Assembly: GCA_902558895.1 (NCBI GenBank)
Contig: CACEFS010000015.1
Span: 1 to 33,705, forward strand
Source of the DNA: an uncultured Prochlorococcus sp.
GTDB lineage: Bacteria; Cyanobacteriota; Cyanobacteriia; PCC-6307; Cyanobiaceae
Direction of reading: 5' to 3'
Length of the DNA: 33,705 nucleotides
Position numbers and translations under genes: made by a program. A model generated the notes under the pieces. It had not been told where the DNA came from, did no database searches, and saw nothing but the letters and a program-made list of their open reading frames with translations. Shown here in pieces: positions 8,138 to 31,936 of the stretch (position 1 is the stretch's first letter; every line of letters starts with the position of its first letter).

Positions 8138-8509
8138 TTGGTAAAAGACCAAAAAAGATGGAGACTACTTAGAGATTTTAAAAAAGGCAAATTTTGCTTT
8201 TTGATTGGGGTTGACAATTGGTCAATCGAGTTACAAAAAAATGAATTCTATTCACTTTACCTTCTACTCTTAAGAATTAATGAACAATTATTAGTTATAA
8301 AAGATCAACTAATGGATGAAGAATCTATTACTTTAGAATTAGAAAAACTTCCTTGGTATATAGAGTTAGAGGGGAAAAAGAATGAATGGAGTTTAAGGAT
8401 TGTTTTTGAAAGTCAAGACCAAACCAGATCGTTTGAAATGTATTGGCCGATACCAATAGCACAAAATTTATTTTATGAAATAAAAAACATGTGGGAATCA
8501 ATGGATTAA
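8138..8509 (+). CDS. DUF1818 family protein
   Basis: 123 residues, small and soluble, matching in length and layout the cyanobacterial DUF1818 family (hydrophobic-aromatic beta-rich protein: KRWRLLRDFKKGKFCFLIG, NWSIELQKNEFYSLYLLLLRI, LEKLPWYIELEGKKNEW, SFEMYWPIPIAQNLF). Function unknown. The only reasonable start is the TTG at 8138, two bases after the rpoZ stop; there is no ATG before residue 61, so re-initiation after rpoZ is the likely mode of expression. The pairing with rpoZ is common in this group. Confidence 0.8.
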   Translation: MVKDQKRWRLLRDFKKGKFCFLIGVDNWSIELQKNEFYSLYLLLLRINEQLLVIKDQLMDEESITLELEKLPWYIELEGKKNEWSLRIVFESQDQTRSFEMYWPIPIAQNLFYEIKNMWESMD

Positions 8510-8821
8510 AAGATAAATAAAATTGGAAATTTTAGAAAATATTTCCCCCTCCAAAAAAAAATTTTTCACAACTTTTCCACAGTATTTTTTTAAAAAATAT
8601 CTGATGATCTAAAGCATGTGGAAAACTTCTGATTTTATATAAATCTTTATATTTAAGAAGGATTTAATTTTACAAAATTACTTTCCATGACTACCCTATT
8701 TATGACTGAATTCTCATTATTCTAGAACCTGAGACTATCTATTGATGATGCTTGTTGACGATTTAGTTATTTTGTAGAAAACTACATCTTGTAAATTTAA
8801 ATTCCAAAAAGTTTTTTCAAT
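8510..8821. other. 312-base gap with three DnaA-box-like nonamers
   Basis: No ORF that I can support. Between 8562 and 8625 it contains TTTTTCACA (8562-8570), a perfect cyanobacterial-type DnaA box TTTTCCACA (8573-8581) and the same nonamer inverted, TGTGGAAAA (8617-8625), set in an A/T-run-rich stretch. The rest (8640-8820) shows no convincing hairpin and holds the promoter region of the DUF2811 gene. Confidence 0.5.
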
Positions 8822-9073
8822 ATGCAAGAGTTAAATTACGACAAAAATTCAAAAGTATTAAATCATAAAGATGAAGTTATAAGTTTCAAATGTGAACTTC
8901 AAGAAAATCTTCAAAAAGCTATGAAAGAATTTGTTGAAGAGCATCCTAACTGGGATCAATACAGGATACTACAAGCTGCTATTGCAGGATTTTTGATGCA
9001 AAAAGGATTTCAAAATAGGGATTTAACGAGACTATATATTGGCAATATGTTTTCAATGAATTTTAAGGATTAA
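8822..9073 (+). CDS. DUF2811 family small protein
   Basis: 83 residues. The central signature, an Asp/Glu-rich helix followed by EEHPNWDQYRILQAAIAGF and LMQKGFQNRDLTRLYIGNMF, fits the cyanobacterial DUF2811 family (pattern HPxWDQxRxxQAAxxxFLMQxG). Family members are small soluble helical proteins of unknown function. The ATG at 8822 is the first in frame. It is convergent with the EVE gene, 7 bases between stops. Confidence 0.85.
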   Translation: MQELNYDKNSKVLNHKDEVISFKCELQENLQKAMKEFVEEHPNWDQYRILQAAIAGFLMQKGFQNRDLTRLYIGNMFSMNFKD

Positions 9074-9080
9074 AAATTTT

Positions 9081-9539
9081 TTATATTTTTTCTAGTAGTA
9101 TTTTTGCAACGTCATTTCTGACAGGTAATATAGACAACCTGTTTCCTTTCTTTACTACTAATAACTCATCCTCATTAAATAAAATCTTTAATTCAGGCAA
9201 ACTTAAAATCTTATCTGACTTAGATTTATATTCTACTTTTACACAATCCCATTTCGGATTATCAGGTTTCGATTTTGGATCAAAATATTTTGAATCTTTA
9301 TCAAATTGAGTAGGATCAACAATATTTAGATCTATAACCTCCATAAGTCCCACAATACCTGGGGGTTTACAATTCGAATGATAAAAAAAAACCATATCTC
9401 CTTTATTCATTCTTCTCATAAAATTTCGAGCCTGATAATTTCTTATTCCGTCCCATAAAGTTACACCGTCATTTTTTAAAGTATCTATGCTGTAGGCATC
9501 TGGTTCACTTTTCATTAGCCAGTAGTTAATTTCAGTCAT
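9081..9539 (-). CDS. EVE (PUA-like) domain protein
   Basis: 152 residues. N-terminus YWLMKSEPDAYSIDTL, then LWDGIRNYQARNFMRRMNKGDMVFFYHS and GIVGLMEVIDL are diagnostic for the EVE domain of the PUA superfamily (thymocyte nuclear protein 1 type), which binds modified bases (5-methyl- or 5-hydroxymethylcytosine, or modified RNA) in other organisms. In cyanobacteria it is a core gene of unknown target. The length is that of a stand-alone EVE domain. No restriction gene is nearby, so a role in restriction is not supported by context here. Confidence 0.93.
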   Translation of the reverse strand: MTEINYWLMKSEPDAYSIDTLKNDGVTLWDGIRNYQARNFMRRMNKGDMVFFYHSNCKPPGIVGLMEVIDLNIVDPTQFDKDSKYFDPKSKPDNPKWDCVKVEYKSKSDKILSLPELKILFNEDELLVVKKGNRLSILPVRNDVAKILLEKI

Positions 9540-10290: not shown

Positions 10291-13200
10291 TTATAAAGAC
10301 TGTAAATCCAAGCTAATGATCAAATCATCAAAGTCATCATTGTTCTTGTCATCTTTTACTCCTATCGTTCCATCTCCATTACTCTTAAAGAATAGATCTC
10401 CATCTGAGTTTGCTTCATCAAAGGCAAAATAAACTTCTCCTGTTAATTCATCTTCCATAAAGGGCGCAAATAAATCTATGCCATCTGTTGCTTCAAAAGT
10501 ATCAGTTAGATCATCTCCATTATTTAAGGCTAGTTCAAAATAAATATTATTCTCATCCAATGCCGCCTCTTCATATCCAATTGATCCGGGATTGATAAGT
10601 TCTCCAGTAATTGGATCTTTTACAGCACCATCAAGATTTTCAATGATATAAATTCCAAAGTTTAAGCTCTTATCACTATCACTTGAGAAGTTTACATCCA
10701 GTTTTACATCATTAAAATCAAGATCACTTACATTTAATAAAGGTTCTGACTCTGTGCCACCAACAATTGATTCGTTTATAAAGGGACGTATAGATTCTTT
10801 AAGCTTTCTACTTAGAAGTCCGCTTTCTTCAAGCTTTAATAAAGTATTTACATCTATATCAACAAAGTCATCACTATCCAGATTGCGGTAAATTCCTTTT
10901 GCAGTTTTTGAGGCATTTATCTCATCCCAGTCCATGATATCTATGGAGAAATCATCAGATCTCTTAGCTTCTTTAATCTGGACTCTTGACCAGTCAATAT
11001 CATCCTTCAGCTGATCACTCATAGATGCATAGTCAACATCATCCCAATCAACTGCTCTATAAATATTTTTTACATATTTAGATTCATTCACTTCATCCCA
11101 GTCAACAATATCTATCGAGAAATCATCGGCTCTTTTTGCTTCTTTCATCTGCACCTGTGACCAATCCAAATCTTCCTTTAACTCATCACTCATAGATGCA
11201 TAATCGACATCATCCCAGTCAACTGTTCTGTAAATACTCTTTGCATATTTGGATTCATTAACTTCCTCCCAGTCAACAGCATCTATGGTGAAATCATCTG
11301 ATCTGGTAGCTTTTCTAAAGACGACCTTATCCCAGGCAAGATCATATTTTGCCAATAGATTCAGCTCACCGTAATTAACTTCTTCCCAGTCAAATCTCCT
11401 GTAGAACTTTTCATCAAGAGTTGAGAAATCTATGAGATTTATATTTGATACTGATCCGGGATCAAATCTTCTTATATTTTGATCGGTCAAATCAATTCTG
11501 GTAGCAATATCAAAGGCATCTGTGGTTACTGATTCTTCTGTACCATTACCATCGATATAGGAAATATGAGCTCTTATCTGCTTGCCTTCATCTTCCGGTG
11601 TAAGGAAATAACTTGCGGGATTATTTAAGATTTCAGATGGTACATAATCTAAATCTGTAGACCCTTGCTGATTTCTTATCTCCCAGTTTTCTCCATCAGT
11701 AGAGACTTCCCATTGATATGAATATTCATGTGTAAATCCTTCATAATTATCAGGATCACTGACTCCAGAGAGATCTACATCTATTATTTCTCCAGGAATG
11801 AAATCTCCTGTTAATAAGGGGGTTCCTGTTGGATCTTGATTGACGAAAGGTATTTTTATTTCTGCGATGCCTTTGGGGATAAAACCATTATGACCGAATA
11901 TATTTGGCTGATCATCCCAGGTACCATCTATATATCCTCCTAAGTATGCGACATTTTCCCCTGTTCCACCGTTTGGAGATAATTGGCCGCCCAAATATCT
12001 ATCATCATGCCAATTTGTAAAATTGGTATTTTCCTGACTTGTCCATTCCCAATTACCTTCACTTTCTATATCGTTAAGCCCAATCCAATATGGAATTTCA
12101 TTTGAATAAGTTTCTTTAGTTATATCATCATGCATACCGTTAATATTAAAACTGCTTATTAAAAATTCATTCTCCTCAGCGTCATTAATAGTTACTAGAT
12201 GACCACCTAATTTATTTGCATTGGCTTCTGCCTCTTCCCATGTTGGTCCTTCTACAATTACATATGCAGAGTCCCCTCGGCGGATGAATGGGGTTTCGGA
12301 TATGCCAAAGGCTGCATGATCATCTGTTGAATACCCCCATTTCCCATCTGTACCTTCACTAGGGTGATTAGTATAAATATCAGCGTAGTCTCTCGTATTA
12401 TTATCACGGCTAGATGGGTTTAAGGGACCATTATCAAACCAATTTTCATAACTTACTGATTCTCCACTAATCCATTCCCACTGCCCTTCTTCATTTGAGT
12501 CATGATATCCAATTAATAACCTTTCTTGATTTAATGGTTTATAAATATCAAAGATAAATTCATTCTCATCAGCATCATTAATAGTTACTAAATGCCCACC
12601 TAATTTATTTGCATTGGCTTCTGCCTCAGTCCAACTAGGACCATCAACAATTGTATAAATACTATTCCCTCGTATAACTGGTTCAGGAATCTCTTTTGGT
12701 ATTTTTATTTCTGCAATTCCTAATGGTGAATTTAGATGGTTTGGTGGATGATCATTCCATTGACCAGCTTTCGATTCATTTAGATCATTAACTTGGAATT
12801 CAACATAACTTGGTCCAATACTACTTCTATCTCCCGAATCACGATTAGGACCTGAGGTAGGTCTCCAATTTCTATAGTTAGAATTTTCACCACTACTCCA
12901 TTCGTAAATATTATCTTCCTCTGCATCATTTAATCCAATCCAATATGTGTACCAGTTTGTTTGATTAGGAAAGTTATCAACTAGCCATTGATTCTCCTCT
13001 GCATCATTAATAGTTACTAAATGACCACCTAATTTATTTGCATTGGCTTCTGCTTCTTCCCATGTAGGTCCTTCTACAATTACATATGCAGAATCCCCTC
13101 TTTGTATGAAGGGGGTTTCGGATATTCCATTAATTGAATTAAAACGATTTTCAAGATTATTGTTCCCGAAGTCATTCCATTGGGGGGAATGCCATCCAAG

Positions 13201-14736
13201 ATGAACATAATTTTCACTTGAACTACCATTTGGTTCACTCCAAGTTTCTCCCCATCTACTACCTTGTCCCCAATTTGTATATAAGTTAGGTTCTCCACTA
13301 CTCCATTCCCAAACACCTTCATCCTCTCTATCAGTTAATCCAATCCAATATAAATCTAGAGATTTTTCCTCTCTTGAAGGTAAAATAGTCGATGTGATAT
13401 CAAATGTTTCATGCAACCAATCATTCTCTTCCTCATTATTAATAGTTACTAAGTGCCCACCTAATTTATTTGCATTAGCTTCTGCCTCAGTCCAACTAGG
13501 ACCATCAACAATTGTATAAATACTATTCCCTCGTATAAATGTTTCAGGAATCTCTTTAGGGACTAATAAATATTTATTTAGAAATGAGTATTTTTCATCT
13601 ATAGCTAAACCAGATAGATAAATTGCATCATTATTTATTTCTAAGGAGTAAGACGTCTCATTGTTCTCTGAGCTTAAAAGTTTTGACCAATTTTTGTTTC
13701 CATTTGAATCGTATTTACTTATAAATATATCTTCACTTCCATTATTAATTTGATCATCTAAATTTCCATCTGTAGATCCACTAACAAAAATATAACCCTC
13801 TTCATTTATGGTCAAACCTCTAGCATCAATATTTGCATCACTATTTATTTCTTGTATCCAGCTTTGCTCTCCATCTTTTTCATATTTAGCGATGAATTGA
13901 CTTCCATCTTGGTCTAAGACTCCAATTGAATATATAGAATCATTTTCATCAATTTCTAAATTTATAACATTATTACCTGTTAATCTTGTCCATTGTCTTG
14001 CTCCCTCAGAATTAACTTTTGAAATAAAACCTCTTCTTCTGTTATTAATTTGATCATCTACATTCCCCTCTGTATATCCTGCAAAATAAATATTATCCTC
14101 AGAGTCTATAGCCACAGAAGAAGCATCTCCTTTTTGGCTTCCGTTCAGGAATTTAAGCCATTGTTTATCTCCATTAGAATCATATTTAGTAATAAAGGCA
14201 TCATGTACTGTATTTAATTCTTCATTATCAATATCACCACCTAGAACTCCCGTTAAATATATAAAACCATCACTATCAATGGCTAAATCATTTCCATATT
14301 CATAAGGACTTGTAGTGCCAAGCAATCGTGTCCATTCATTATCACCAGATGAATTTAATTTTGAGAGAAAAACATCTCTATTTCCAAAATTAGCTTGATC
14401 ATCAAGATTACTTTGGGTGCCGCCTGTTATATAAATATTATTTTCATTATCAATTATTAGTCCACCAGAGAAATCTTCTTCCGAACCACCCACTAATTCT
14501 ACCCACTCTTTATTTCCATCTCTATCAAATTTAATTATGTAAGCCTCATAATCATCTACATTCTGATTGTCTAAATTAGTTCTAGTAGTTCCAGAAAGGA
14601 AAATTTCTCCAGTATTGCTAAGTGCTATATTTTCATGACCTCTATCTGAATCAGATCTAATCTCCTTAGACCATTCAAGAACTGGGGAAATTTGTTCTGA
14701 ATAAGATGTTCCTCCATAATCTGTATAGTGAGGCAT
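10291..14736 (-). CDS. Giant mosaic extracellular protein: propeller + 4 C-type lectin domains + 57-aa repeats
   Basis: 1481 residues, no N-terminal signal peptide and no membrane segment. Domains in order: residues about 20-390, seven SBBP-like beta-propeller repeats (units such as GFIYLTGVLGG and NIYFAGYTEGN with FITKYDSNGDKQW); about 397-535, 544-674, 686-810 and 818-957, four C-type lectin-like domains (W-x-E-A-E-A-N-A-N-K-L-G-G-H-L-V-T-I at each start, YWIGL in the first, second and fourth); about 965-1085, an Ig-like segment with SDPDNYEGFTHEYSYQWEVS; about 1115-1300, the DW repeats; about 1310-1481, an acidic Asp/Asn-rich end finishing DDLIISLDLQSL. This architecture is known from cyanobacterial surface or adhesion proteins exported by type I secretion through an uncleaved C-terminal signal; that route is inferred, as no ABC exporter or RTX nonapeptide is in view. 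The ligand is unknown. Confidence 0.85.
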   Translation of the reverse strand: MPHYTDYGGTSYSEQISPVLEWSKEIRSDSDRGHENIALSNTGEIFLSGTTRTNLDNQNVDDYEAYIIKFDRDGNKEWVELVGGSEEDFSGGLIIDNENNIYITGGTQSNLDDQANFGNRDVFLSKLNSSGDNEWTRLLGTTSPYEYGNDLAIDSDGFIYLTGVLGGDIDNEELNTVHDAFITKYDSNGDKQWLKFLNGSQKGDASSVAIDSEDNIYFAGYTEGNVDDQINNRRRGFISKVNSEGARQWTRLTGNNVINLEIDENDSIYSIGVLDQDGSQFIAKYEKDGEQSWIQEINSDANIDARGLTINEEGYIFVSGSTDGNLDDQINNGSEDIFISKYDSNGNKNWSKLLSSENNETSYSLEINNDAIYLSGLAIDEKYSFLNKYLLVPKEIPETFIRGNSIYTIVDGPSWTEAEANANKLGGHLVTINNEEENDWLHETFDITSTILPSREEKSLDLYWIGLTDREDEGVWEWSSGEPNLYTNWGQGSRWGETWSEPNGSSSENYVHLGWHSPQWNDFGNNNLENRFNSINGISETPFIQRGDSAYVIVEGPTWEEAEANANKLGGHLVTINDAEENQWLVDNFPNQTNWYTYWIGLNDAEEDNIYEWSSGENSNYRNWRPTSGPNRDSGDRSSIGPSYVEFQVNDLNESKAGQWNDHPPNHLNSPLGIAEIKIPKEIPEPVIRGNSIYTIVDGPSWTEAEANANKLGGHLVTINDADENEFIFDIYKPLNQERLLIGYHDSNEEGQWEWISGESVSYENWFDNGPLNPSSRDNNTRDYADIYTNHPSEGTDGKWGYSTDDHAAFGISETPFIRRGDSAYVIVEGPTWEEAEANANKLGGHLVTINDAEENEFLISSFNINGMHDDITKETYSNEIPYWIGLNDIESEGNWEWTSQENTNFTNWHDDRYLGGQLSPNGGTGENVAYLGGYIDGTWDDQPNIFGHNGFIPKGIAEIKIPFVNQDPTGTPLLTGDFIPGEIIDVDLSGVSDPDNYEGFTHEYSYQWEVSTDGENWEIRNQQGSTDLDYVPSEILNNPASYFLTPEDEGKQIRAHISYIDGNGTEESVTTDAFDIATRIDLTDQNIRRFDPGSVSNINLIDFSTLDEKFYRRFDWEEVNYGELNLLAKYDLAWDKVVFRKATRSDDFTIDAVDWEEVNESKYAKSIYRTVDWDDVDYASMSDELKEDLDWSQVQMKEAKRADDFSIDIVDWDEVNESKYVKNIYRAVDWDDVDYASMSDQLKDDIDWSRVQIKEAKRSDDFSIDIMDWDEINASKTAKGIYRNLDSDDFVDIDVNTLLKLEESGLLSRKLKESIRPFINESIVGGTESEPLLNVSDLDFNDVKLDVNFSSDSDKSLNFGIYIIENLDGAVKDPITGELINPGSIGYEEAALDENNIYFELALNNGDDLTDTFEATDGIDLFAPFMEDELTGEVYFAFDEANSDGDLFFKSNGDGTIGVKDDKNNDDFDDLIISLDLQSL
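10870..11395 (-). repeat. 57-codon DW repeats inside the giant protein
   Basis: Units begin at 11277, 11106 and 10935, exactly 171 bases apart. Each starts V/M-D-W-x-E-V/I-N-x-S-K and ends R-x-D-D-F-S-I-D. The third unit breaks off after about 20 residues, and a shortened related unit (FDWEEVNYGELN) precedes the first. Every unit holds a paired WDDVDYASMSD element. Confidence 0.85.
11865..13545 (-). repeat. Four C-type lectin domains in A-B-A-B order
   Basis: Domain starts near 13545 and 12680 share GNSIYTIVDGPSWTEAEAN; those near 13105 and 12285 share GDSAYVIVEGPTWEEAEAN. The nucleotide sequence is nearly identical within each pair over about 100 bases, so a two-domain block was duplicated or homogenised. 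The distal parts of the four domains differ strongly in sequence and length. Confidence 0.8.
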
Positions 14737-19723: not shown

Positions 19724-19900
19724 ATGACGAATCTCGCAATTCAGCTACTACTTCTAATTGTAGTTTTAGTTAATTTTAGAGCGATCCTTACCGCTAAAAT
19801 TTATTCACAATCAGTAAAAGAAATTAAATGTAAGAGATTATTTTGTAGTGAATCTATAAGTACCCATATTGTGTTTCTTGATAAATTACTTCCAAACTAA
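19724..19900 (+). CDS. Small membrane protein, 58 residues
   Basis: A strong AAGGAGGG ribosome-binding site lies 7 bases before the ATG. One long hydrophobic helix (MTNLAIQLLLLIVVLVNFRA) is followed by a hydrophilic part with KEIKCKRLFC, a possible Cys pair C38/C43, and a weakly hydrophobic end. Type of single-pass membrane protein common in these islands; function unknown. Confidence 0.6.
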   Translation: MTNLAIQLLLLIVVLVNFRAILTAKIYSQSVKEIKCKRLFCSESISTHIVFLDKLLPN

Positions 19901-19948
19901 AAGATCTCAAACTAGAGATCTAGTATTAAAAGTTAGAGTCCACCAAAA

Positions 19949-20056
19949 CTAAAAATAAGGTGTATATGGTACTTCTGTTTTTAATGAATCTCCGTAGTAA
20001 CTTTCAGCTGACTTTACTAAGATCCAATAAATGAAATTTAGAAATGATTTTTCCAT
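19949..20056 (-). CDS. 35-residue protein MEKSFLNFIYW, paralogue of 31031-31150
   Basis: MEKSFLNFIYWILVKSAESY then YGDSLKTEVPYTPYF. An aromatic amphipathic helix precedes a short polar tail. A second copy at 31031-31150 aligns end to end over 30 residues (EK.LLNF.YW.L..S.ES.YG.S...EVP), with many silent or conservative changes, which is good evidence that it is a translated gene family. Function unknown. Confidence 0.6.
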   Translation of the reverse strand: MEKSFLNFIYWILVKSAESYYGDSLKTEVPYTPYF

Positions 20057-20177
20057 AGGAATATCTATACTCTTTCCTAATTCAAATCAGAATTTAAAAT
20101 AAAAACATCGTAGAAAATACTTAACTGAAGAGATTTAGATTTTCTTAGTTAATTTGTGTTGGTTAGGTTTGTATGAA

Positions 20178-20267
20178 ATGCTACTAAAGCTTGTCTTATC
20201 AATTGATTTAGCAATATGCTTATTGATTCCTGTAAGTCCAAAAGATATATTAAATGGACAATCTTAA
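20178..20267 (+). CDS. Putative 29-residue hydrophobic peptide
   Basis: MLLKLVLSIDLAICLLIPVS then PKDILNGQS; one membrane-length helix. A TTG three codons upstream is an alternative start and no clear ribosome-binding site is seen. It lies 12 bases before the MST paralogue. Weak support. Confidence 0.3.
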   Translation: MLLKLVLSIDLAICLLIPVSPKDILNGQS

Positions 20268-20279
20268 TAAAAGAAATTT

Positions 20280-20396
20280 ATGAGTACTCAAAAAAGTCAA
20301 AGCCATAAAAGACAAGAACAAAATAATACAGAATGGTTAGATGAATTAATCAATTAAATTGAAAATATGAAAAATAAAATATCTAATACTTTTTAA
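20280..20396 (+). pseudogene. MST..WLD.LIN paralogue with an in-frame TAA
   Basis: Reads MSTQKSQSHKRQEQNNTEWL then DELIN and TAA at 20355-20357, followed in the same frame by IENMKNKISNTF and a second TAA at 20394-20396. The intact copy at 19373 has Gln (CAA) at the matching codon (LDKLINQLEKN against LDELIN*IENM), so a single C-to-T change explains the early stop. The full frame would be 38 residues, close to the 40 of the intact copy. It could be a truncated functional peptide. Confidence 0.6.
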
Positions 20397-20454
20397 CTTA
20401 TTACTTTTTCTATCATTTATTCCGTTATTAAATATTTTTAATACTTTTGTAATT

Positions 20455-20468
20455 AAGCCAGCTGGCTT
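20455..20468. promoter_or_regulatory. Perfect palindrome AAGCCAGCTGGCTT before gdmH
   Basis: A 14-base perfect inverted repeat, GC-rich against its surroundings, 138 bases upstream of the gdmH start. It is followed by TTT on the plus strand. It may be an operator for a dimeric regulator or a small hairpin (AAGCC-AGCT-GGCTT) ending an upstream transcript. Confidence 0.45.
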
Positions 20469-20605
20469 TTTAATAGACTTATGTATTTTATTTTTGCAAA
20501 TAGTTATTTAACAATGTTTAAATGAGAATCTTTTAAAGCAAGTTTATGGTTCATTTTTATTTTTATTGACAATATTGAAATAAGTGTAAAAAGAATTTTT
20601 AATTT

Positions 20606-21796
20606 GTGACTACTGAATCATCTAAAAATCAAAACTTTATAAGAAAGCATCCGAGCGAAGGAATGGATGCTTTAGAAAAAGAATCAAAATTACCTCTTAA
20701 AGGGTGGGAAAAGGAGGTTGCCCGAGCAAAGGAATATGGTTTAGAAGGAGCAAAAAGTATTGTCGATAGAAATATATCTACATTTTCAAGAGGAGAATTA
20801 CCCCATTTTGCAGGTATCAATACTTTCATGAAAGCTCCATATGTTGAAAATGTAAATGAAGTGGGAAGTTATGATGTTGCGATCGTTGGAGTTCCTCATG
20901 ATTCTGGAACTACTTATAGACCAGGGACAAGATTCGGACCTCAAGGAATTAGAAAAATTTCTGCTCTCTATACTCCTTACAATTACGAAATGGGAGTGGA
21001 TCTTAGAGAGCAGATATCTATTTGTGATGTAGGAGATATTTTTACAATTCCAGCTAATAATGAAAAAAGTTTTGATCAAATTTCAAAGGGGGTTGCTCAT
21101 ATTTTTGCTAGTGGTGCATTTCCAATTATCTTAGGTGGAGATCATTCTATAGGTTTTCCCACAGTTAGAGGAGTTTGTCGCCACTTAGGAGATAAAAAAG
21201 TAGGGATCATTCACTTTGATAGACATGTAGATACTCAAGAAACAGATTTAGATGAAAGAATGCATACCTGTCCATGGTTTCATGCAACTAATATGAAAAA
21301 TGCACCTGCAAAAAATCTTGTTCAATTAGGAATTGGAGGTTGGCAAGTACCAAGAGAAGGAGTGAAAATTTGCAGGGAACGAAGTACAAATGTTTTAACA
21401 GTTACTGATATCTGTGAAATGGGATTAAAAGAGGCCGCTGATTTTGCGATTGAAAAAGCTACGGATGGAACTGACTGTGTATATATTTCTTTTGATATTG
21501 ATTGTATTGATGCTGGATTTGTCCCTGGAACTGGTTGGCCTGAACCTGGGGGTTTATTACCTCGAGAGGCATTAAAACTTTTGGAGTACATTATCAGAAA
21601 AGTGAATGTATGTGGAATAGAGCTTGTTGAGGTTTCGCCTCCATATGATGTAAGCGATATGACAGCTCTATTAGCTACTAGAGTTATTTGTGATTCAATT
21701 GCACATCTTGTAGTAAGTGGTCAGCTCCCAAGACAATCTAAACCAGAATGGATTTCAGATAAATGTAATATGTCAGTTGATCAAAAATGGAGATAG
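20606..21796 (+). CDS. gdmH: Nickel-dependent guanidine hydrolase (GdmH type, ureohydrolase family)
   Basis: 396 residues, longer than agmatinase because of a roughly 75-residue N-terminal extension. Arginase-fold metal ligands are seen: GGDHS (D179/H180), DRHVD (D205, H207, D209) and SFDIDCID (D297, D299). The Arg in DRHVDTQ (agmatinase and arginase have DAH) and PGTGWPEPGG after the last metal motif are, to my knowledge, features of the GdmH group and not of agmatinases. Established for Synechocystis Sll1077: hydrolysis of guanidine to urea and ammonia with Ni, needing HypA and HypB. Here hypA starts 6 bases after its stop, which supports the same enzyme. Start is GTG. Agmatinase is the alternative reading; context argues against it. 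Confidence 0.87.
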   Translation: MTTESSKNQNFIRKHPSEGMDALEKESKLPLKGWEKEVARAKEYGLEGAKSIVDRNISTFSRGELPHFAGINTFMKAPYVENVNEVGSYDVAIVGVPHDSGTTYRPGTRFGPQGIRKISALYTPYNYEMGVDLREQISICDVGDIFTIPANNEKSFDQISKGVAHIFASGAFPIILGGDHSIGFPTVRGVCRHLGDKKVGIIHFDRHVDTQETDLDERMHTCPWFHATNMKNAPAKNLVQLGIGGWQVPREGVKICRERSTNVLTVTDICEMGLKEAADFAIEKATDGTDCVYISFDIDCIDAGFVPGTGWPEPGGLLPREALKLLEYIIRKVNVCGIELVEVSPPYDVSDMTALLATRVICDSIAHLVVSGQLPRQSKPEWISDKCNMSVDQKWR

Positions 21797-21802
21797 ATTT
21801 TC

Positions 21803-22159
21803 GTGCATGAAGTAGATATGACAAAATGCCTTATTCTTTCGATGGAAGAATGGGCAAAGAAAAAAAATAAAAAAAAAATAGTTATTGAAAAGATTAATCT
21901 TAAAATTGGGGAATTTACTTGCGTGGAACCAATATCATTAATAAATACTTTTAATGCGGCAGTCTTGGGTTCTTGGTTAGATTCCTCTCAGATTACTATT
22001 GAGACAATACCCTTTGAAGGGAAATGCTCTAAATGCAATAGATTATATTTTCCAAAGAAAGAGAATGGATATAAATCCCCATGTTGCAATTTTAATTTAG
22101 AGGAAATTATTAGTGGGAGGGAATTAAAAATCGCATCTATTGATTTTCAAGAAAAGTAG
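21803..22159 (+). CDS. hypA: Nickel chaperone HypA (guanidine hydrolase maturation)
   Basis: 118 residues. GTG start, giving the required N-terminus Met-His-Glu, whose His2 is the nickel ligand in HypA; so this start is certain. KIGEFTCVEPISLINTFNAA matches the family core (lxiGelsgVepeaLrfaf). The zinc site is odd: C75-S-K-C78 is normal, but the second pair is S92-P93-C94-C95 where the family has C-P-x-C. No hydrogenase gene is in the window and none is expected in Prochlorococcus, so the target is taken to be the hydrolase just upstream. Confidence 0.92.
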   Translation: MHEVDMTKCLILSMEEWAKKKNKKKIVIEKINLKIGEFTCVEPISLINTFNAAVLGSWLDSSQITIETIPFEGKCSKCNRLYFPKKENGYKSPCCNFNLEEIISGRELKIASIDFQEK

Positions 22160-22199: not shown

Positions 22200-22883
22200 A
22201 TGCATTTACCAATTTCAGACAAAATTGAATTAAATATTCTTCATCAAAATAGTCATCAAGCAGAGAAAAATAAAATTAAGTTCAATAATTATAATTTACT
22301 TTGCTTGAACATAATGAGCAGTCCAGGTGCAGGAAAAACGAGATTACTTGAAATAACTTTAGAAGATCTTTCAAAAAAATTTTATAGTGCTGTTTTAGAG
22401 GGTGATATGACCACTAATCTTGATGCGGCAAGATTAGAAAAATTAAATATTCCAGTAGTACCAATTACGACTGGAAGAGCATGCCATCTCGATGCAAATA
22501 TGGTTAGTGGAGGTTTGAAATTACTAGAAAAAAAAATAAATCCTGATTCACTAGATATTTTGTTAGTGGAAAATGTAGGAAATTTAGTGTGTCCTGCAGA
22601 ATTTGAGATTGGAGAACATTTTAAAGTTGCACTTTTAAGTATTACCGAAGGTGAGGATAAACCTTTAAAATATCCAATAATGTTCAGAGAAGCAGATTTA
22701 ATTTTGATAACTAAAGTTGATTTGTTACCCCATTTGAATTTTGATATTAACGAATTAAAATCGAACATAGCTTCAACTAATCCGAAGGCAGATGTTATAG
22801 AAATTTCTTCGATAACCAAGTCTGGATTTGATTTATGGCAAGATTGGATTAGTAAAAAGATTCTGAAATTTAAAAATATTTAA
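22200..22883 (+). CDS. hypB: GTPase HypB, nickel insertion
   Basis: 227 residues. GTP-binding motifs: P-loop MSSPGAGKTRLLE near residue 40, EGDMTTNLDAARL near 63, ENVGNLVCPAEFEIGE near 122 and TKVD near 173 as the G4 motif. GRACHLDANMV carries the Cys-His pair of the G-domain metal site. The N-terminus has only scattered His (LHQNSHQAEKN), not the His-rich nickel-storage stretch of some HypB. It works with HypA to load nickel, here presumably into GdmH. After the stop comes a 112-base gap with two small hairpins before the transporter genes. Confidence 0.94.
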   Translation: MHLPISDKIELNILHQNSHQAEKNKIKFNNYNLLCLNIMSSPGAGKTRLLEITLEDLSKKFYSAVLEGDMTTNLDAARLEKLNIPVVPITTGRACHLDANMVSGGLKLLEKKINPDSLDILLVENVGNLVCPAEFEIGEHFKVALLSITEGEDKPLKYPIMFREADLILITKVDLLPHLNFDINELKSNIASTNPKADVIEISSITKSGFDLWQDWISKKILKFKNI

Positions 22884-22923: not shown

Positions 22924-22995
22924 AAGTATCAGTCATTACAACTTTAGATTTGCTTTTTCTTGAGTATTGATAGTACGTAATATTTTTTTTAAAAA

Positions 22996-23994
22996 ATGTT
23001 TAAAAAATTGAGAGTTTTTGTTGCCTCTTTGCTGGCTTTAATATTAGCGATTTCATTAAGTACACTATCAAGTCCTGCAGCTCCAAAAGGTGAACCAATC
23101 ACTTTGGGATACAGTAACTGGGCAGGATGGTGGCCTTGGGCGATAGCTGTTGATCAAAAAATGTTTGAAAAAAATGGAGTTAATGTTCAGATGAAATGGT
23201 TTGATGGATATGTTCAATCCATGGAAACTTTTGCTGCTGGTAAGATTGATGGAAATTCGCAGACTCTTAATGATACTATTTCATTCTTACCAGGAGAGAA
23301 TGGAGGGGAAGTAGTTGTTTTAGTTAATGATAATTCTGCAGGGAATGACCAAATAATTGCAGATAAATCAATTAAAAGTGTTGCTGATTTGAAAGGTAAA
23401 ACAGTAGCAGTAGAAGAAGGTGTTGTGGATGATTTTTTACTTGTTTTAGCTCTGAATGATGTTGGATTAACTCGAGATGATGTAATTATTAAGGGACTTC
23501 CAACTGATCAGGCTGCAACTGCATTCGCAGCAGGAAAAGTTGATGCAGTTGGTGCATTCCCTCCATTTACAGGAACTGCAATGAAGAGGCCTGGAGCAAG
23601 AGTTATCGCTAGTTCAAAAGATTATCCTGGTGCAATCCCTGATTTATTAGCTGTAAGCGGAGATTTGATTTCTGAAAGACCAGATGATGTTCAAAAAATT
23701 GTTAAAACATGGTGGGATATAAGAGAATTCATGGAAAAAAATCCAAGAAAATCTGAAAAGATCATGGCAAAGCGAGCTGGGATCCCAACACGCGAATACA
23801 AACAATATAAAGGTGGAACTAGGTTCTTTTCTTTGGAAGAAAATTTAGAAGCTTTTAGTGATGGGTTTGGTATGAAACATATGCCTTATGCAGCGAAACA
23901 AATGGCAGACTTTATGGTAAAGGTAGGATTTATTCCTGAAAAACCAGATATGAGTAAATTATTTGACTCTTCTTTCGTTAAAAACATCAGTTAA
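22996..23994 (+). CDS. ABC transporter substrate-binding protein (NMT1/SsuA-like), probable guanidine importer
   Basis: 332 residues. A Sec signal peptide is visible: MFKKLRVFVASLLALILAIS followed by a Ser-rich stretch and SPA-APKG as likely cleavage site. The mature N-terminus ITLGYSNWAGWWPWAIAVDQ is typical of the NMT1/THI5-like class that binds nitrate, taurine, sulfonates and related solutes. Trp-rich, which would suit a planar cation by cation-pi contacts. By position it corresponds to Synechocystis sll1080 in the guanidine locus; substrate therefore inferred as guanidine or a derivative. The stronger expression expected for binding proteins fits the hairpin just downstream. Confidence 0.88.
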   Translation: MFKKLRVFVASLLALILAISLSTLSSPAAPKGEPITLGYSNWAGWWPWAIAVDQKMFEKNGVNVQMKWFDGYVQSMETFAAGKIDGNSQTLNDTISFLPGENGGEVVVLVNDNSAGNDQIIADKSIKSVADLKGKTVAVEEGVVDDFLLVLALNDVGLTRDDVIIKGLPTDQAATAFAAGKVDAVGAFPPFTGTAMKRPGARVIASSKDYPGAIPDLLAVSGDLISERPDDVQKIVKTWWDIREFMEKNPRKSEKIMAKRAGIPTREYKQYKGGTRFFSLEENLEAFSDGFGMKHMPYAAKQMADFMVKVGFIPEKPDMSKLFDSSFVKNIS

Positions 23995-24010: not shown

Positions 24011-24829
24011 ATGGTCAGTTCGAATTTAATCAAGAGGGATAAATATTTTTTATCCCTCTTTTCATTTGGTAGTGAACCGAAAAAATTAATTAAAATATTT
24101 CTTCAAATAGCCTCACTTTTGCTTCCCCTTTTAATTTGGACATTAGTTTGTCAATTAAAACTTGTAAGTGAAATGTTTTTACCATCACCGTTAGCGGTCT
24201 TTTATTCTCTTTTGGATATGGCTGAGAGTGGAATATTATTTGAAGATATTTTTGCAAGTACTGGTAGGGTATTTGCTGGTTTTATAATTGCAACAATTTT
24301 TTCAATTCCATTAGGAATTTTAATGGGTTCTTTCCCTTCTTTTTGTGCGTTATGTGAACCATTAATTGCGATGCTTAGGTATATGCCTGCCGCTGCTTTT
24401 TCTCCTTTGCTTATTATTTATTTAGGAATAGAAGAGGCTCCAAAAATCGCATTAATTTTCATTGGTACTGTTTATTTTAATGTTTTGATGGTTATGGATT
24501 CAGTAAAATTTGTGCCCAAAGAACTCATTGAAACAACACTTACTTTAGGAGGTAATACAAAAGATTTATTGATCAGAGTAATAGCCAGATACTCATTGCC
24601 AAGTATTATTGATACTTTAAGAATTAATATCGCAACTTCATGGAATTTAGTAATTGTTGCAGAGTTAATTGCAGCGGAAGTTGGTTTAGGTAAAAGGATT
24701 CAACTGGCTCAAAGATTTTTTCGCACAGATCAAATATTTGCAGAATTAATAGTTCTTGGATTAATAGGATTTGCTTTGGATATGAGTTTTAGATTGTTAC
24801 TTAGACGTACATGTAAATGGGCTGTTTAA
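24011..24829 (+). CDS. ABC transporter permease, probable guanidine importer
   Basis: 272 residues, SsuC/TauC-like with about six membrane helices (for example LLPLLIWTLVCQLKL near residue 37 and FAGFIIATIFSIPLGILMG near 89). The cytoplasmic EAA loop is TLTLGGNTKDLLIRVIARYS near residue 176 followed by LPSIIDTLRI. ATG at 24011 is the only in-frame ATG before the first helix. Codons 8-17 form a perfect 12-base-pair hairpin (24032-24060), an unusual load on the start of a coding sequence. The stop is directly followed by the ATG of the ATPase (TAAATG). Confidence 0.9.
   Translation: MVSSNLIKRDKYFLSLFSFGSEPKKLIKIFLQIASLLLPLLIWTLVCQLKLVSEMFLPSPLAVFYSLLDMAESGILFEDIFASTGRVFAGFIIATIFSIPLGILMGSFPSFCALCEPLIAMLRYMPAAAFSPLLIIYLGIEEAPKIALIFIGTVYFNVLMVMDSVKFVPKELIETTLTLGGNTKDLLIRVIARYSLPSIIDTLRINIATSWNLVIVAELIAAEVGLGKRIQLAQRFFRTDQIFAELIVLGLIGFALDMSFRLLLRRTCKWAV
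24032..24062 (+). terminator. Terminator-like hairpin inside the first codons of the permease gene
   Basis: AAGAGGGATAAA pairs perfectly with TTTATCCCTCTT around a 5-base loop (TATTT), followed by two more T. It starts 38 bases after the stop of the binding-protein gene. The likely role is partial termination or a 3' end stabiliser that keeps binding-protein mRNA above permease mRNA. Confidence 0.65.
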
Positions 24830-25591
24830 ATGAAATTAGATGTTAATAATATTTCAAAATATTTTGGGGAAGGTTCAAATAGAAAAAAGGCAATTGAGGG
24901 AATAAGCTTTTCAATAAGTTCTGGTGAATTTAAAACTCTTGTTGGGAGCTCTGGATCAGGTAAAAGTACTATATTGAGGATTATTGCTGGGCTTGAGAGT
25001 CCATCGAAAGGGAACGTAAAAGTAGATGGAAAAATAGTTAGTGGACCGGGATTGGATAGAGGAATGGTTTTTCAGAAATATAGTCTTTTCCCTTGGCTCA
25101 CAGCATCTGAGAATATTGCATTTGGAATGAATTTAAATTCTTATAAGTTGAAAGAAATAAAATATAGGACATCTTATTTATTAGAAGTAGTAGGTCTTCA
25201 GGATTCGGGAAATAAGTATCCAAAAGAATTATCTGGAGGAATGCAACAAAGGATTGCAATTGCAAGAGCTTTAGCGACTAACCCTAAAATTCTACTTTTA
25301 GATGAACCTTTTGGAGCCTTGGACTTACAGATAAGAGAATCTATGCAGAAATTTCTCTATGAATTATGGAAAAAAACTTCATTAACAGTTTTACTTATAA
25401 CCCATGATATTGAAGAAGCATTAGCGCTCTCTCAGCAAATATGTATTTTGGCGCCTAATCCTGGAAGAATCATAAAAGAAGTTAAGGTAGATCTACAAAA
25501 AGGAGATTTAGATAAATTGAAACTTGATTCGGATTTTGCAAAATTAAGATATGAGTTATCTGATTTTTTAAGATGCCTCCAAAAAAAATAA
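24830..25591 (+). CDS. ABC transporter ATP-binding protein, probable guanidine importer
   Basis: 253 residues, the normal size for SsuB/TauB-type ATPases. Walker A GSSGSGKST, Q-loop VFQKYSLFPWLTA, signature LSGGMQQRIAIARAL, Walker B ILLLDEPFGALD and H-loop LLITHDIEEAL are all intact, so the protein should be active. The start abuts the permease stop, and 3 bases separate its stop from the Rieske gene, so all four genes from the binding protein on are probably one transcript. Confidence 0.94.
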   Translation: MKLDVNNISKYFGEGSNRKKAIEGISFSISSGEFKTLVGSSGSGKSTILRIIAGLESPSKGNVKVDGKIVSGPGLDRGMVFQKYSLFPWLTASENIAFGMNLNSYKLKEIKYRTSYLLEVVGLQDSGNKYPKELSGGMQQRIAIARALATNPKILLLDEPFGALDLQIRESMQKFLYELWKKTSLTVLLITHDIEEALALSQQICILAPNPGRIIKEVKVDLQKGDLDKLKLDSDFAKLRYELSDFLRCLQKK

Positions 25592-25594
25592 ATA

Positions 25595-26617
25595 ATGTCA
25601 ACTAGTTTTTTGCCTACTTGGCTTTATAAAGACAAAAAAATTTTTGAACTTGAATTAGATAACTATTCAAAAAATTATTGGCACCCATTCATTTTTATAG
25701 GAGAAATCAAACCTGGCGAAATATTGGAAAAAAAATTCTTTAATCAATCATTATTAATCTCGCGTTCAGAAAATAATTTAATAACTGTTTTTAAAAATAG
25801 ATGCCCTCATCGTGGGTCAAAATTGTGTTTGCCAAAAACAAAATTTAATCCTTCAAAAAATATTTTTTGTCCCTACCATGGCTGGACTTTTGATAGTTTT
25901 GGCAAACTTAAAACCTTGCCATTAAAGTACGATTTTGAAACAAAAATAGAAAAAAAGGATTATTTTTTAGAAAAAGTTAACTCTTTAATAAATGGACCTT
26001 TAATTTGGATTAATTTCAGCAAAAAACCAATATCTATAGATGATCAAATTGAGCTTGTTGGAAGAAAATGTAATGATCAATGGGATATGAAGTACAGCAT
26101 TTTTTCTGAGTTTTCTGACACCTTAAATTGCAATTGGAAAATTGCCCATGATAATACACTGGATGATTATCATGTAGCAATAGCTCATAAAGATACCCTA
26201 CATAAAGAACAAGGTCCAATTAAAAATTACAGTTATTTCTTCAGTGAATTTTGTAATCTTCTTGTTACCCCTCTTAATAGTGAAGGAAATCTATATACCT
26301 TTGGATTACTCCCATGGAACCATCTAATAATTTGGCCTGGTAAAGGGCTTGTTTTAATAAATTATCTTCCCAAAAATATTGATCAGTGTATTATTGAAAT
26401 TAAATTAGCCTCTGCTTCTTTATGTGAATATGATTTAGAAAATTGGAAAAGAAGTATATTAGAATTTCTTGGAGAAGATAAAGTTATTGTCGAATCAGTT
26501 CATAAGTCTTATCTGGAAAATTTTAAACTTGGTCCGCCTAATAGACTTGAACAAAGGATTATACACTGGCAAAATATTTATAAAGATTTTCTAAATGCAT
26601 CGCGCATTTCTTTCTAA
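25595..26617 (+). CDS. Rieske non-haem iron oxygenase, alpha-subunit type
   Basis: 340 residues. Rieske [2Fe-2S] ligands C70-P-H72 and C92-P-Y-H95 (spacer of 19 residues, longer than the usual 15-17). Mononuclear iron site: NWKIAHDNTLDDYHVAIAH with H193 and H198 and acidic D190/D191 before them, the layout of glycine-betaine and carnitine oxygenases (N-W-K-x-x-x-E-N-x-x-E-x-Y-H). The end has the family features VIVESVHKSYLEN and EQRIIHWQNIY. No ferredoxin or reductase partner lies next to it; a general cell ferredoxin would have to serve. Sitting 3 bases behind the importer ATPase, it most likely acts on the imported compound, for example by oxidative dealkylation or cleavage of a substituted guanidine. 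The substrate is inference. Confidence 0.85.
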   Translation: MSTSFLPTWLYKDKKIFELELDNYSKNYWHPFIFIGEIKPGEILEKKFFNQSLLISRSENNLITVFKNRCPHRGSKLCLPKTKFNPSKNIFCPYHGWTFDSFGKLKTLPLKYDFETKIEKKDYFLEKVNSLINGPLIWINFSKKPISIDDQIELVGRKCNDQWDMKYSIFSEFSDTLNCNWKIAHDNTLDDYHVAIAHKDTLHKEQGPIKNYSYFFSEFCNLLVTPLNSEGNLYTFGLLPWNHLIIWPGKGLVLINYLPKNIDQCIIEIKLASASLCEYDLENWKRSILEFLGEDKVIVESVHKSYLENFKLGPPNRLEQRIIHWQNIYKDFLNASRISF

Positions 26618-26731
26618 CATAATTTCTATTTATTGCTCTGATATTATGAATTAGATTTTTAATTTGCTAGGGGGTTAACTATATCTTTAATAGCCTTTAT
26701 TGATAATGTAGTTAAGTACAAAAAGTTGATT

Positions 26732-27049
26732 ATGAAAAATTTTATACTAATAATAGTCTCTTTATCTTTCCTATCTTCTTGCAGAAATGACAAAGATTTT
26801 TTTCTCACTGAGGAGAATGCTTTGTTAAGTTGCGGAGGTAAATCTCGTATCATCGAAAATGATAAAGAAGAGATAATAAATACTGAAGTTAAGGATTTAA
26901 GAGATGGAATTGGTAAATACGTTGAATTTACAGTTGTTGAGACAGATAAAAAAGGAGGAAAATATAGGATTATTAATTGTTTCCCAAGTGAAGAGCCACA
27001 AGATTCAATAATAAAAGTTGTTAAAACAAATTATAAATTAAGTAATTAA
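26732..27049 (+). CDS. Small lipoprotein
   Basis: 105 residues from the ATG at 26732 (a TTG two codons earlier is the alternative). Signal peptide MKNFILIIVSLSFLSSCRND with a clean lipobox L-S-S-C, so Cys17 should be lipidated. The mature part is a small charged domain with further Cys in LLSCGGKSRII and YRIINCFPSEE that may form a disulfide. No family recognised. It lies 114 bases after the Rieske gene and may or may not belong to the guanidine cluster. Confidence 0.7.
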   Translation: MKNFILIIVSLSFLSSCRNDKDFFLTEENALLSCGGKSRIIENDKEEIINTEVKDLRDGIGKYVEFTVVETDKKGGKYRIINCFPSEEPQDSIIKVVKTNYKLSN

Positions 27050-27931: not shown

Positions 27932-28450
27932 TCAAATAGGAGTTTTAATTTTTCTTTCTAGAGGATTAAAATTGACTCTTTTGATTTTGTTATTTTCGTA
28001 AATCCAATAAACAGGGGGACTTTTTCTTGCCTTAATTAAATTAATTTTGTCTAATTTTTGAGGGATAAATTCTTTAGAAGGATCAAAAAATTTATCTCTT
28101 TTGGGTTGGTTTAAAGCAATACTACCTTCTTTCCCTGAGATAGATCTGTGATAAGTTCCTATAGGAATTTCTAATGCTCCCATAGATCTATTTAAATAAA
28201 TCACATGATGTGGTTCATCCCAGAAAGGATTTATTAAAACAAATTTCCTTTCTCCGATGATAACTAAATTGTGGTCAATTTGATGATAGTGAACGTAATA
28301 TTGCTCATCTTTTAAATCATCTGGAGGAGATATAGCTTCCCCAGAATGTATCACAACATCAGAACCATTAGAAGTAACTATGCCTGCATCGAAGAATGTT
28401 ACTTTTGGAGTTTCTCTAAAAACATTTATTGGGAAGAATCTTAATTCCAT
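27932..28450 (-). CDS. Cupin-like hypothetical protein
   Basis: 172 residues. A cupin-type barrel is suggested by YYVHYHQIDHNLVIIGERKF (His pair, then a Gly turn as in cupin motif 1) and by ALEIPIGTYHRSISGKEGSI (motif 2 with one His). No signal peptide or membrane segment. The C-terminal 40 residues are basic (KLDKINLIKARKSPPVYWIY). Function unknown. It is the upstream partner of the LOG gene with 1 base between. Confidence 0.65.
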   Translation of the reverse strand: MELRFFPINVFRETPKVTFFDAGIVTSNGSDVVIHSGEAISPPDDLKDEQYYVHYHQIDHNLVIIGERKFVLINPFWDEPHHVIYLNRSMGALEIPIGTYHRSISGKEGSIALNQPKRDKFFDPSKEFIPQKLDKINLIKARKSPPVYWIYENNKIKRVNFNPLERKIKTPI

Positions 28451-31832: not shown

Positions 31833-31839
31833 TAGATTG

Positions 31840-31936
31840 TAGTGAGTGCTACAAAATCGTCCGATCTACCATCTGATAGACCGCAGTACGACTCAAGCCA
31901 TAGGACGGGGACTTGAGCAAGTTTAGGAGCTGCATC
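31840..31936 (+). promoter_or_regulatory. Structured 5' leader or small RNA
   Basis: Higher in GC than its neighbours. Complementary segments: CGTCC (31858) with GGACG (31903), TCTA (31865) with TAGA (31877), CTCAAG (31892-31897) with CTTGAG (31912-31917), and GCAG (31883) with CTGC (31930) beside the AGGAG ribosome-binding site. It could be a cis-regulatory leader; a 24-codon GTG frame (31842) also crosses it. Confidence 0.5.

Follow-up and report, generated by a model that had tools for sequence, protein, structure and literature searches.

Guanidine riboswitches are widespread, yet only a small number of enzymes are known to generate free guanidine (PMC11018352). Doré 2023 reported a guanidinase cluster (Pro-eCAG_004 / Syn-eCAG_001) in picocyanobacteria; in most Synechococcus/Cyanobium genomes that carry it, a putative Rieske Fe-S gene (CK_00002251) follows downstream, and in the Synechococcus reference genomes a guanidine riboswitch lies ahead of the cluster (PMC10119275). 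The conclusion drawn in the relevant sections of that study goes only as far as iron serving as a cofactor in the system, and the Fe-S protein is suggested there as a possible explanation for the lack of the cluster in picocyanobacteria from low-iron areas (PMC10119275). Among the matches listed from open-licence PubMed Central papers, we found no function for the Rieske gene. The comammox guanidinase, in the assays described, makes no urea from methylguanidine, arginine, creatine, guanidinobutyrate or guanidinopropionate and some from agmatine, in agreement with earlier work on the cyanobacterial guanidinase (PMC11410670), so that most substituted guanidines would need an extra step. A second, unrelated route, the guanidine carboxylase pathway, consists of a carboxylase, a two-subunit carboxyguanidine hydrolase and an allophanate hydrolase (PMC12508155).

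Here we analyse a stretch of 33,705 nucleotides (the window) from an uncultured Prochlorococcus sp. (contig CACEFS010000015.1; source genome 1.15 Mb, 70.5% complete), in which a Rieske oxygenase gene closes such a cluster, and compare it with loci from related genomes.

Results

The window holds a complete guanidinase cluster ending in an oxygenase gene

Seven plus-strand genes stand in a row in the window (Table 1), and Pfam, NCBIfam and PDB matches show that the guanidinase set, consisting of the guanidinase, its nickel chaperones and an ABC importer, is complete. GdmH matches the PDB entries 7esr/7oi1 ('Probable agmatinase 2') with 754 bits over query residues 15–396, and we take these entries to be the Synechocystis guanidinase Sll1077/GdmH. 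The oxygenase ORF begins three bases past the stop of the importer ATPase gene, as the initial annotation had it.

Table 1. Genes and sequence elements of the cluster, numbered from the first base of the window
Feature	Position	Strand	Basis or remark
gdmH, guanidine hydrolase (guanidinase)	20606..21796	+	arginase family Pfam, 267 bits
hypA-like nickel chaperone	21803..22159	+	Pfam HypA 78 bits; NCBIfam hypA 72.7, under cut-off 88.1
hypB-like nickel GTPase	22200..22883	+	NCBIfam TIGR00073 275 bits, cut-off 121
NtcA-box-like GTAN8TAC	22926..22939	+	70 bp upstream of binding-protein gene
Importer substrate-binding protein (SBP)	22996..23994	+	NCBIfam SsuA_fam 271 bits, cut-off 163.5
Importer permease	24011..24829	+	Pfam BPD_transp_1 67.8 bits
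Importer ATPase	24830..25591	+	Pfam ABC_tran 116.6 bits
Rieske non-haem iron oxygenase	25595..26617	+	340 aa, ATG start; Pfam, alignment, AlphaFold2 model
Rieske [2Fe-2S] motif C70-x-H72-x19-C92-x2-H95	25802..25879	+	sequence; kept in 35-row alignment
Clade signature C-N-W-K-x-A-H-D-N-T-L-D190-D191-Y-H193-x4-H198	26129..26188	+	kept in alignment
E294-D295	26474..26479	+	D295 = third ligand of mononuclear iron; invariant, aligns with CntA D323

Several other elements of the window were recorded. Two small ORFs without a Pfam match (26726–27049 on the plus strand, 107 aa and lipoprotein-like by eye; 27932–28450 on the minus strand, 172 aa) are retained next to the cluster in several Prochlorococcus loci. 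Outside the guanidine cluster lies a glutamine-II riboswitch (31855–31917, plus strand, 58.4 bits), immediately preceded by a further NtcA-box-like GTAN8TAC (31839–31852), and a 1481-aa ORF on the minus strand (10291–14736) contains repeated stretches that by eye resemble C-type lectin domains.

The oxygenase is intact and has an atypical bridging position

The gene had been annotated as a complete Rieske oxygenase with ligands C70/H72/C92/H95 and H193/H198, and this is borne out: the ORF is intact, both Pfam domains are matched above their cut-offs (Rieske PF00355, 55.5 bits against 20.3; Ring_hydroxyl_A, 34.0 against 24.9), and in an alignment of 35 rows C70, H72, C92, H193 and H198 are invariant and H95 is nearly so. 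A third iron ligand, D295, was absent from that annotation and is likewise invariant in the 35 rows; the 2-His-1-carboxylate site formed by H193, H198 and D295 aligns with H208, H213 and D323 of CntA (CntA residue numbers here use a +20 offset of the PDB chain, by our own count). The AlphaFold2 model (pLDDT 87.7) has the oxygenase fold. Its closest solved structure is CntA (Z 32.0, rmsd 2.4 over 325 residues by VIA-align), followed by the stachydrine demethylase Stc2 (Z 30.3; Foldseek gives the same ranking), and both are oxygenases that break C–N bonds of quaternary amines. Two other assignments were rejected. The nearest NCBIfam profile is that of the glycine betaine monooxygenase GbcA (NF058607), which the protein matches with 85.6 bits against a cut-off of 670. 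A chlorophyll-breakdown or CAO/PaO-type oxygenase does not fit the ranking of CntA and then Stc2 at the top in both Foldseek and VIA-align; no pigment-oxygenase chain is among the structure matches listed, which by itself proves nothing.

Within Prochlorococcus-type loci (n = 55 including the window, with rows covering under 95% of the gene left out) the median dN/dS of the oxygenase gene is 0.204, indicating purifying selection, and none of these near-full-length rows has an internal stop. The other six cluster genes have dN/dS values of 0.04–0.10, two to five times lower, and the oxygenase is only 33–40% identical over its full length to copies elsewhere in the family, compared with 78–87% for GdmH. 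The oxygenase is thus constrained but fast-changing.

The 19-residue spacer of the Rieske motif, previously proposed to mark a distinct subgroup, is not a sharp character: in 211 extracted rows, which are not de-duplicated and include four outgroup oxygenases, its length is 19 in 146, 18 in 51, 20 in 3 and another value in 4, with 7 unmatched. In the aligned sequences the clade is better recognised by a conserved Asp at position −2 from the first iron-binding His (D191 in the window). Among 148 distinct rows, 107 have Asp-Asp at the bridging position and the residue after it, and all of these come from the window's family or from named records with a Prochlorococcus/Synechococcus/Cyanobium-type cluster. 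Another 36, from genomes outside the family, have Cys-Asp, with Cys at the usual bridging position and Asp next to it. The five rows without the motif are the four outgroup oxygenases, which have a bridging Glu, and locus L221, which fails to continue into Tyr-His. The bridging Asp/Glu expected three residues ahead of the first His is present in the window as D190, and D191 is kept in out-of-family relatives where D190 is Cys. Because the CntA residue at the position of this second Asp sits beside the iron (PMC10952381), the Asp could, by analogy, hold a guanidinium group or substitute for the electron bridge.

The oxygenase gene is linked to gdmH within the family and travels with the importer

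We surveyed 300 genomes of the window's family, scoring the oxygenase at E ≤ 1e-30 and gdmH at E ≤ 1e-100. The oxygenase is present in 71 genomes, gdmH in 98 and both in 69 (Fisher p 1.2e-41). The initial annotation had staked its proposal on linkage to gdmH in related genomes, and this linkage held: in 64 of the 69 genomes with both genes the oxygenase follows gdmH on the same strand at a distance of 2.3–5.9 kb. The remaining five have the two genes on different contigs (three genomes) or separated by 163 kb in G186 and by 145 kb in G273. In the latter two (loci L038 and L039) SBP, permease, ATPase and oxygenase are intact as a unit far from gdmH, and G186 carries its gdmH-hypA-hypB run at a separate place, so that the oxygenase moved with the importer. 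The proposed single module therefore survives in part: the oxygenase belongs with guanidine catabolism, but in split clusters (G186, G273 and genus g214, see below) it stays with the importer and not with GdmH. It is also dispensable, as 29 of the 98 family genomes with gdmH are without it; the reverse, an oxygenase without gdmH, occurs in two genomes (G153, 81% complete; G263, 89%). At genus level it was found in 60 of 266 genomes, with an internal stop in none of the 60 matches.

A pattern scan of contigs, which used Asp-Asp-type patterns only and is blind to Cys-Asp relatives, gave 79 cyanobacterial record titles among the best 80 of 117 relatives, and the closest named relatives of the window's gene, among the matches listed, are Prochlorococcus. 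One contig assigned to an Acidiferrobacteraceae MAG (L137, PBSU01000039.1) carries a full Synechococcus-like gdmH-oxygenase cluster with gdmH 84% identical, and is probably mis-binned. The gene contexts described here and below come from 20 + 8 + 4 + 33 + 7 stretches plus loci L107–L137, a subset of all matches.

Outside the family the oxygenase mostly accompanies gdmH or a guanidine-carboxylase-type gene

With a profile built on 21 rows the clade was detected in 54 of the 388 class genomes surveyed, 37 of them outside the family, and the gene context was examined for all 37, some of which place the gene on short contigs. A gdmH orthologue is present in 28 of the 37 (4/4 + 24/33), not counting the gdmH-like matches of G862 and G877, which are 33%-identical paralogues. 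All six gdmH-less oxygenase genomes that are at least 90% complete (G851, G860, G823, G862, G877 and G945) carry a urea/guanidine-carboxylase gene (E ≤ 1e-250), a gene absent from the out-of-family genomes tested that have both oxygenase and gdmH (0/16; Fisher 1.3e-5 for 6/6 versus 0/16) and from those tested that are oxygenase-negative (0/11). In three further oxygenase genomes, 68–70% complete, neither gdmH nor the carboxylase was found.

At locus L206 the carboxylase matches the NCBIfam urea carboxylase TIGR02712 with 1853 bits (cut-off 1304), and UAAP1, UAAP2 and allophanate hydrolase all score above their NCBIfam cut-offs; we take UAAP1 and UAAP2 to be the two carboxyguanidine hydrolase subunits. 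At L206–L208, three of the six, oxygenase, UAAP1, UAAP2 and carboxylase follow one another on one strand with the importer and the allophanate hydrolase divergent alongside, and at L201 and L204 the oxygenase is found within the same 19 kb stretch as the carboxylase set. G945 has its oxygenase away from the carboxylase set, and the carboxylase match of G877 falls in two frames. The two carboxylase-linked groups do not fall together in the tree, f18 grouping with an f23 group (94/97) and f5 standing alone (100/99), with moderate support; if this tree is right, the partner of the oxygenase differed at least twice while the oxygenase was kept.

We rejected out-of-family co-occurrence with gdmH as proof in itself, since it is weak: 12 of 22 sampled genomes called oxygenase-negative by searches for the clade also carry gdmH (two copies with internal stops), and the association alone gives p 0.08. 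With gdmH this common in oxygenase-negative genomes, the argument outside the family rests on gene position, on the complementarity of gdmH and carboxylase, and on riboswitches. The oxygenase gene lies apart from both guanidine pathways in G704, G945, G865 and G896, and G603 has one importer beside gdmH and a second beside the oxygenase.

Further neighbours were seen at some of these loci. At L152 (7363–11906) a second importer of the same class and an isochorismatase-family hydrolase, whose best NCBIfam match is biuret amidohydrolase at a score far under the cut-off, accompany the oxygenase; the same genome also has a gdmH-importer cluster (L157). L201 and L204 have a permease, an ATPase and a binding protein (34% identical) similar to those of L152 near the oxygenase. 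A MetX-like alpha/beta hydrolase adjoins the oxygenase in two families (L193:3727-4725, L201:10359-11387 and L204:10402-11484; 67% identical, NF005757 in L201).

In one genus the importer-oxygenase unit has a guanidine-I riboswitch of its own

In genus g214 a guanidine-I riboswitch precedes a run of GS-like ligase, SBP, permease, ATPase and oxygenase in 11 of 11 loci scanned, and gdmH-hypA-hypB stand elsewhere behind their own riboswitch in all four loci examined (L230–L233). Another genome of this genus (L195) has the riboswitch, gdmH, hypA, hypB, SBP, permease, ATPase and oxygenase as a single run that is ligase-free. Elsewhere the riboswitch lies upstream of gdmH (8 of 10 family loci, two of the eight without the oxygenase), upstream of UAAP1 (carboxylase loci L201, L204 and L206–L208) or upstream of the importer-UAAP1-UAAP2-carboxylase run (L234 of G945); directly upstream of the oxygenase gene it was found in 0 of 6 carboxylase loci.

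A guanidine-I riboswitch in the window was rejected, as no match reaches the gathering score and none appears up to E 5 in 19800–20700. Nor was one found at the Prochlorococcus-type locus L057, at the split loci of G186 and G273 or at the second importer-oxygenase cluster of G603. The Prochlorococcus-type loci instead have the NtcA-box-like element GTAN8TAC about 70 bp ahead of the binding-protein gene in 48 of 48 hypB-SBP gaps (49/49 Prochlorococcus-type upstream regions versus 0/38 other Synechococcus/Cyanobium-type loci), and these counts represent one conserved site rather than 49 independent ones because the rows are close relatives. Its position makes it a possible promoter of the importer-oxygenase unit's own.

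Two neighbouring genes may bear on the product of the oxygenase

Many relatives have a GS-III/GMAS-like ligase between hypB and SBP (e.g. L055:6286-7647). An orthologue at least 73% identical is present in 57 of the 300 family genomes, 48 with the oxygenase and 9 without; among gdmH genomes it occurs in 47/69 with the oxygenase versus 9/29 lacking it (p 0.0015). It also stands in the oxygenase-free gdmH cluster of G702, and the window's genome and 22 other family genomes, some of them incomplete, have the oxygenase and lack the ligase. In the PDB the ligase matches glutamate-methylamine ligase 9qur best (392 bits) and next 7cql (334 bits), a GMAS-type ligase, with glutamine synthetases behind (275 bits). 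The FDGSS stretch of glutamine synthetases, which presumably holds their ammonium-site Asp, is replaced by FTGAALDG. The ligase points to an amine or ammonia acceptor. Since a methylamine-ligase-like gene is linked in so many relatives, we keep an amine substrate for the oxygenase under consideration.

The second neighbour is an HRI1-like protein with a D-x-R motif, present in 6 of 28 oxygenase-bearing versus 0 of 18 oxygenase-free genomes, one of the six away from the oxygenase, and absent from the window's genome (incomplete) and from nine other oxygenase-bearing family genomes tested. It adjoins the oxygenase in several families (L195:10771-11445; L201:8286-9134; L149 at about 8506–9213, a copy broken by a stop), and two of the proteins exceed the cut-off of Pfam PF16815. 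MgdL is modelled with its conserved residues inside a barrel, and its D49 and R51 are required for activity (PMC12508155); the HRI1-like protein is the only candidate for a lyase of this kind. Plasmid homologues of the HRI1-like protein were also sought, with one member as query, and gave no match.

Discussion

The oxygenase gene is bound to an importer, accompanies two unrelated guanidine routes and in one genus has its own guanidine riboswitch, and a role in guanidine metabolism is on these grounds quite likely. Because the guanidine-degradation genes that it accompanies are of two unrelated kinds, the oxygenase probably frees guanidine from larger nitrogen compounds imported as nutrients. 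The mechanism that best accounts for the loci is that a substituted guanidine is taken up and oxidised, which makes free guanidine available to GdmH or the guanidine carboxylase; to this mechanism we give a probability of roughly 60%. We infer substrate class, reaction and electron donor as follows. The oxygenase would be the catalytic subunit acting on an N-substituted guanidine delivered by the adjoining ABC importer. Using O2 and two electrons that photosynthetic ferredoxin probably supplies, since no reductase gene adjoins the oxygenase, it would hydroxylate the carbon adjacent to a guanidino nitrogen, and the resulting hemiaminal would break down to yield free guanidine and an aldehyde. 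GdmH, which receives its nickel through HypA and HypB, would then hydrolyse the guanidine, giving urea and ammonia; where relatives lack gdmH, the carboxylase, UAAP1/UAAP2 and allophanate hydrolase would take its place. Methylguanidine is the simplest candidate substrate and accounts for about half of the probability that we give to this mechanism.

Several observations speak against guanidine release. The oxygenase is missing from the 29 of 98 family gdmH genomes, and outside the family gdmH is as common without it as described above (12/22; p 0.08). Four genomes (G704, G945, G865, G896) hold it apart from both pathways, G603 holds it beside a second importer, and the three genomes of 68–70% completeness have neither pathway. 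Neither the window nor the second cluster of G603 has a guanidine-I riboswitch, 48 of the 71 family oxygenase genomes carry the ligase that most resembles methylamine ligases, and the sole MgdL-like candidate, the HRI1-like protein, is missing from the window's incomplete genome and nine family genomes with the oxygenase.

The alternative that survives best, though we consider it unlikely, is that the substrate is a methylated or quaternary amine, taken up through the same broad importer and split by the oxygenase in the manner of CntA and GbcA. The ligase, where present, would capture the amine product, and the oxygenase would belong to the guanidine regulon only through the joint switching-on of several organic-nitrogen routes. 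CntA and Stc2 as nearest structures and GbcA as nearest NCBIfam profile agree with this explanation, and the ligase, its chief support, hints at an amine product by its frequency among family oxygenase genomes and its association with the oxygenase among gdmH genomes. It is weakened by the loss of both the CntA aromatic residue and the Cys pair (T188, D191 and V194 in the window), by the ligase occurring in oxygenase-free gdmH genomes (nine in the family, and the G702 cluster) and the oxygenase occurring without the ligase in the window's genome and 22 others (some incomplete), and it leaves the carboxylase partnership in gdmH-less genomes unexplained. A substrate from within the pathway (free guanidine, urea or another product), oxidised for detoxification or in a side branch, would suit the loci and the one-genus riboswitch control that the oxygenase has in common with guanidine genes, but GdmH or the carboxylase already processes guanidine, so that consuming O2 and electrons for it would bring no evident gain, and the oxygenase stays by the importer far from gdmH at L038 and L039 and beside a second importer in G603; we regard this as improbable. 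An iron-sulphur accessory giving iron dependence or redox sensing rather than substrate catalysis would match the absence of the cluster from low-iron-area picocyanobacteria (PMC10119275), but both metal sites keep their ligands, which makes it the most far-fetched of these explanations.

Oxidative guanidine release may be taken further, to a proposal that we hold tentatively, at a little short of even odds: that the clade is dedicated to oxidative guanidine N-dealkylation, an independent second occurrence of the MgdH reaction, coupled to whichever guanidine pathway the genome has and under its own guanidine-I riboswitch in one genus, with an atypical site: relatives outside the picocyanobacteria have Cys in place of the bridging carboxylate, and the conserved Asp next to it would serve either as the electron path between subunits or as the holder of the guanidinium. 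If the oxygenase does release guanidine from substituted guanidines, abundant ocean phototrophs would gain an unlisted organic nitrogen pool whose use is tied to iron and oxygen, and the reaction would be one that we did not find for Rieske enzymes in open-licence PubMed Central papers, among the matches listed, carried out at an unusual bridging site.

The cluster of the window is the one described by Doré 2023, with speB2 (gdmH), hypA, hypB, the ABC importer and a downstream Rieske gene (PMC10119275). The linkage of gdmH and Rieske gene, which had been annotated as part of an unreported module, is therefore already published; an enzyme activity, the importer-oxygenase unit separate from gdmH and the carboxylase link are absent from the sections of that paper dealing with the cluster, and its main text makes no mention of a glutamine synthetase (PMC10119275). 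What is new here is the survey of co-occurrence and clustering, the split loci, the carboxylase link, the riboswitch of the importer-oxygenase unit and the conserved Asp. The sll1077-1082 operon of Synechocystis shares gdmH, hypA, hypB and the ABC importer with the window and, as described, has no Rieske gene (PMC10119275), so the oxygenase was rightly placed outside that set.

CntA (group Va; PDB 6y8j, 6y9c, 6zgp), which breaks C–N bonds, resembles the oxygenase in its fold and in both metal sites, whereas its pi-cation residue Y203 is replaced by T188 (invariant in 35 rows), its Cys206/Cys209 pair by D191/V194, no CntB-type reductase adjoins and identity is about 20%. Membership of the CntA group was rejected on these replacements of the aromatic residue and of the group V C-x-x-C, the latter found in some members only. 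The nearest known chemistry to the proposed reaction is that of MgdH, in a different fold. The MgdH/MgdL system of Vreelandella boliviensis also releases guanidine oxidatively and is encoded in an operon that has a guanidine riboswitch and includes an ABC importer, whereas MgdH is a 2-oxoglutarate dioxygenase (PMC12508155). The protein here is a Rieske oxygenase by Pfam, and a 2-oxoglutarate/Fe(II) dioxygenase of the MgdH type was rejected, so that the comparison with MgdH is a functional one.
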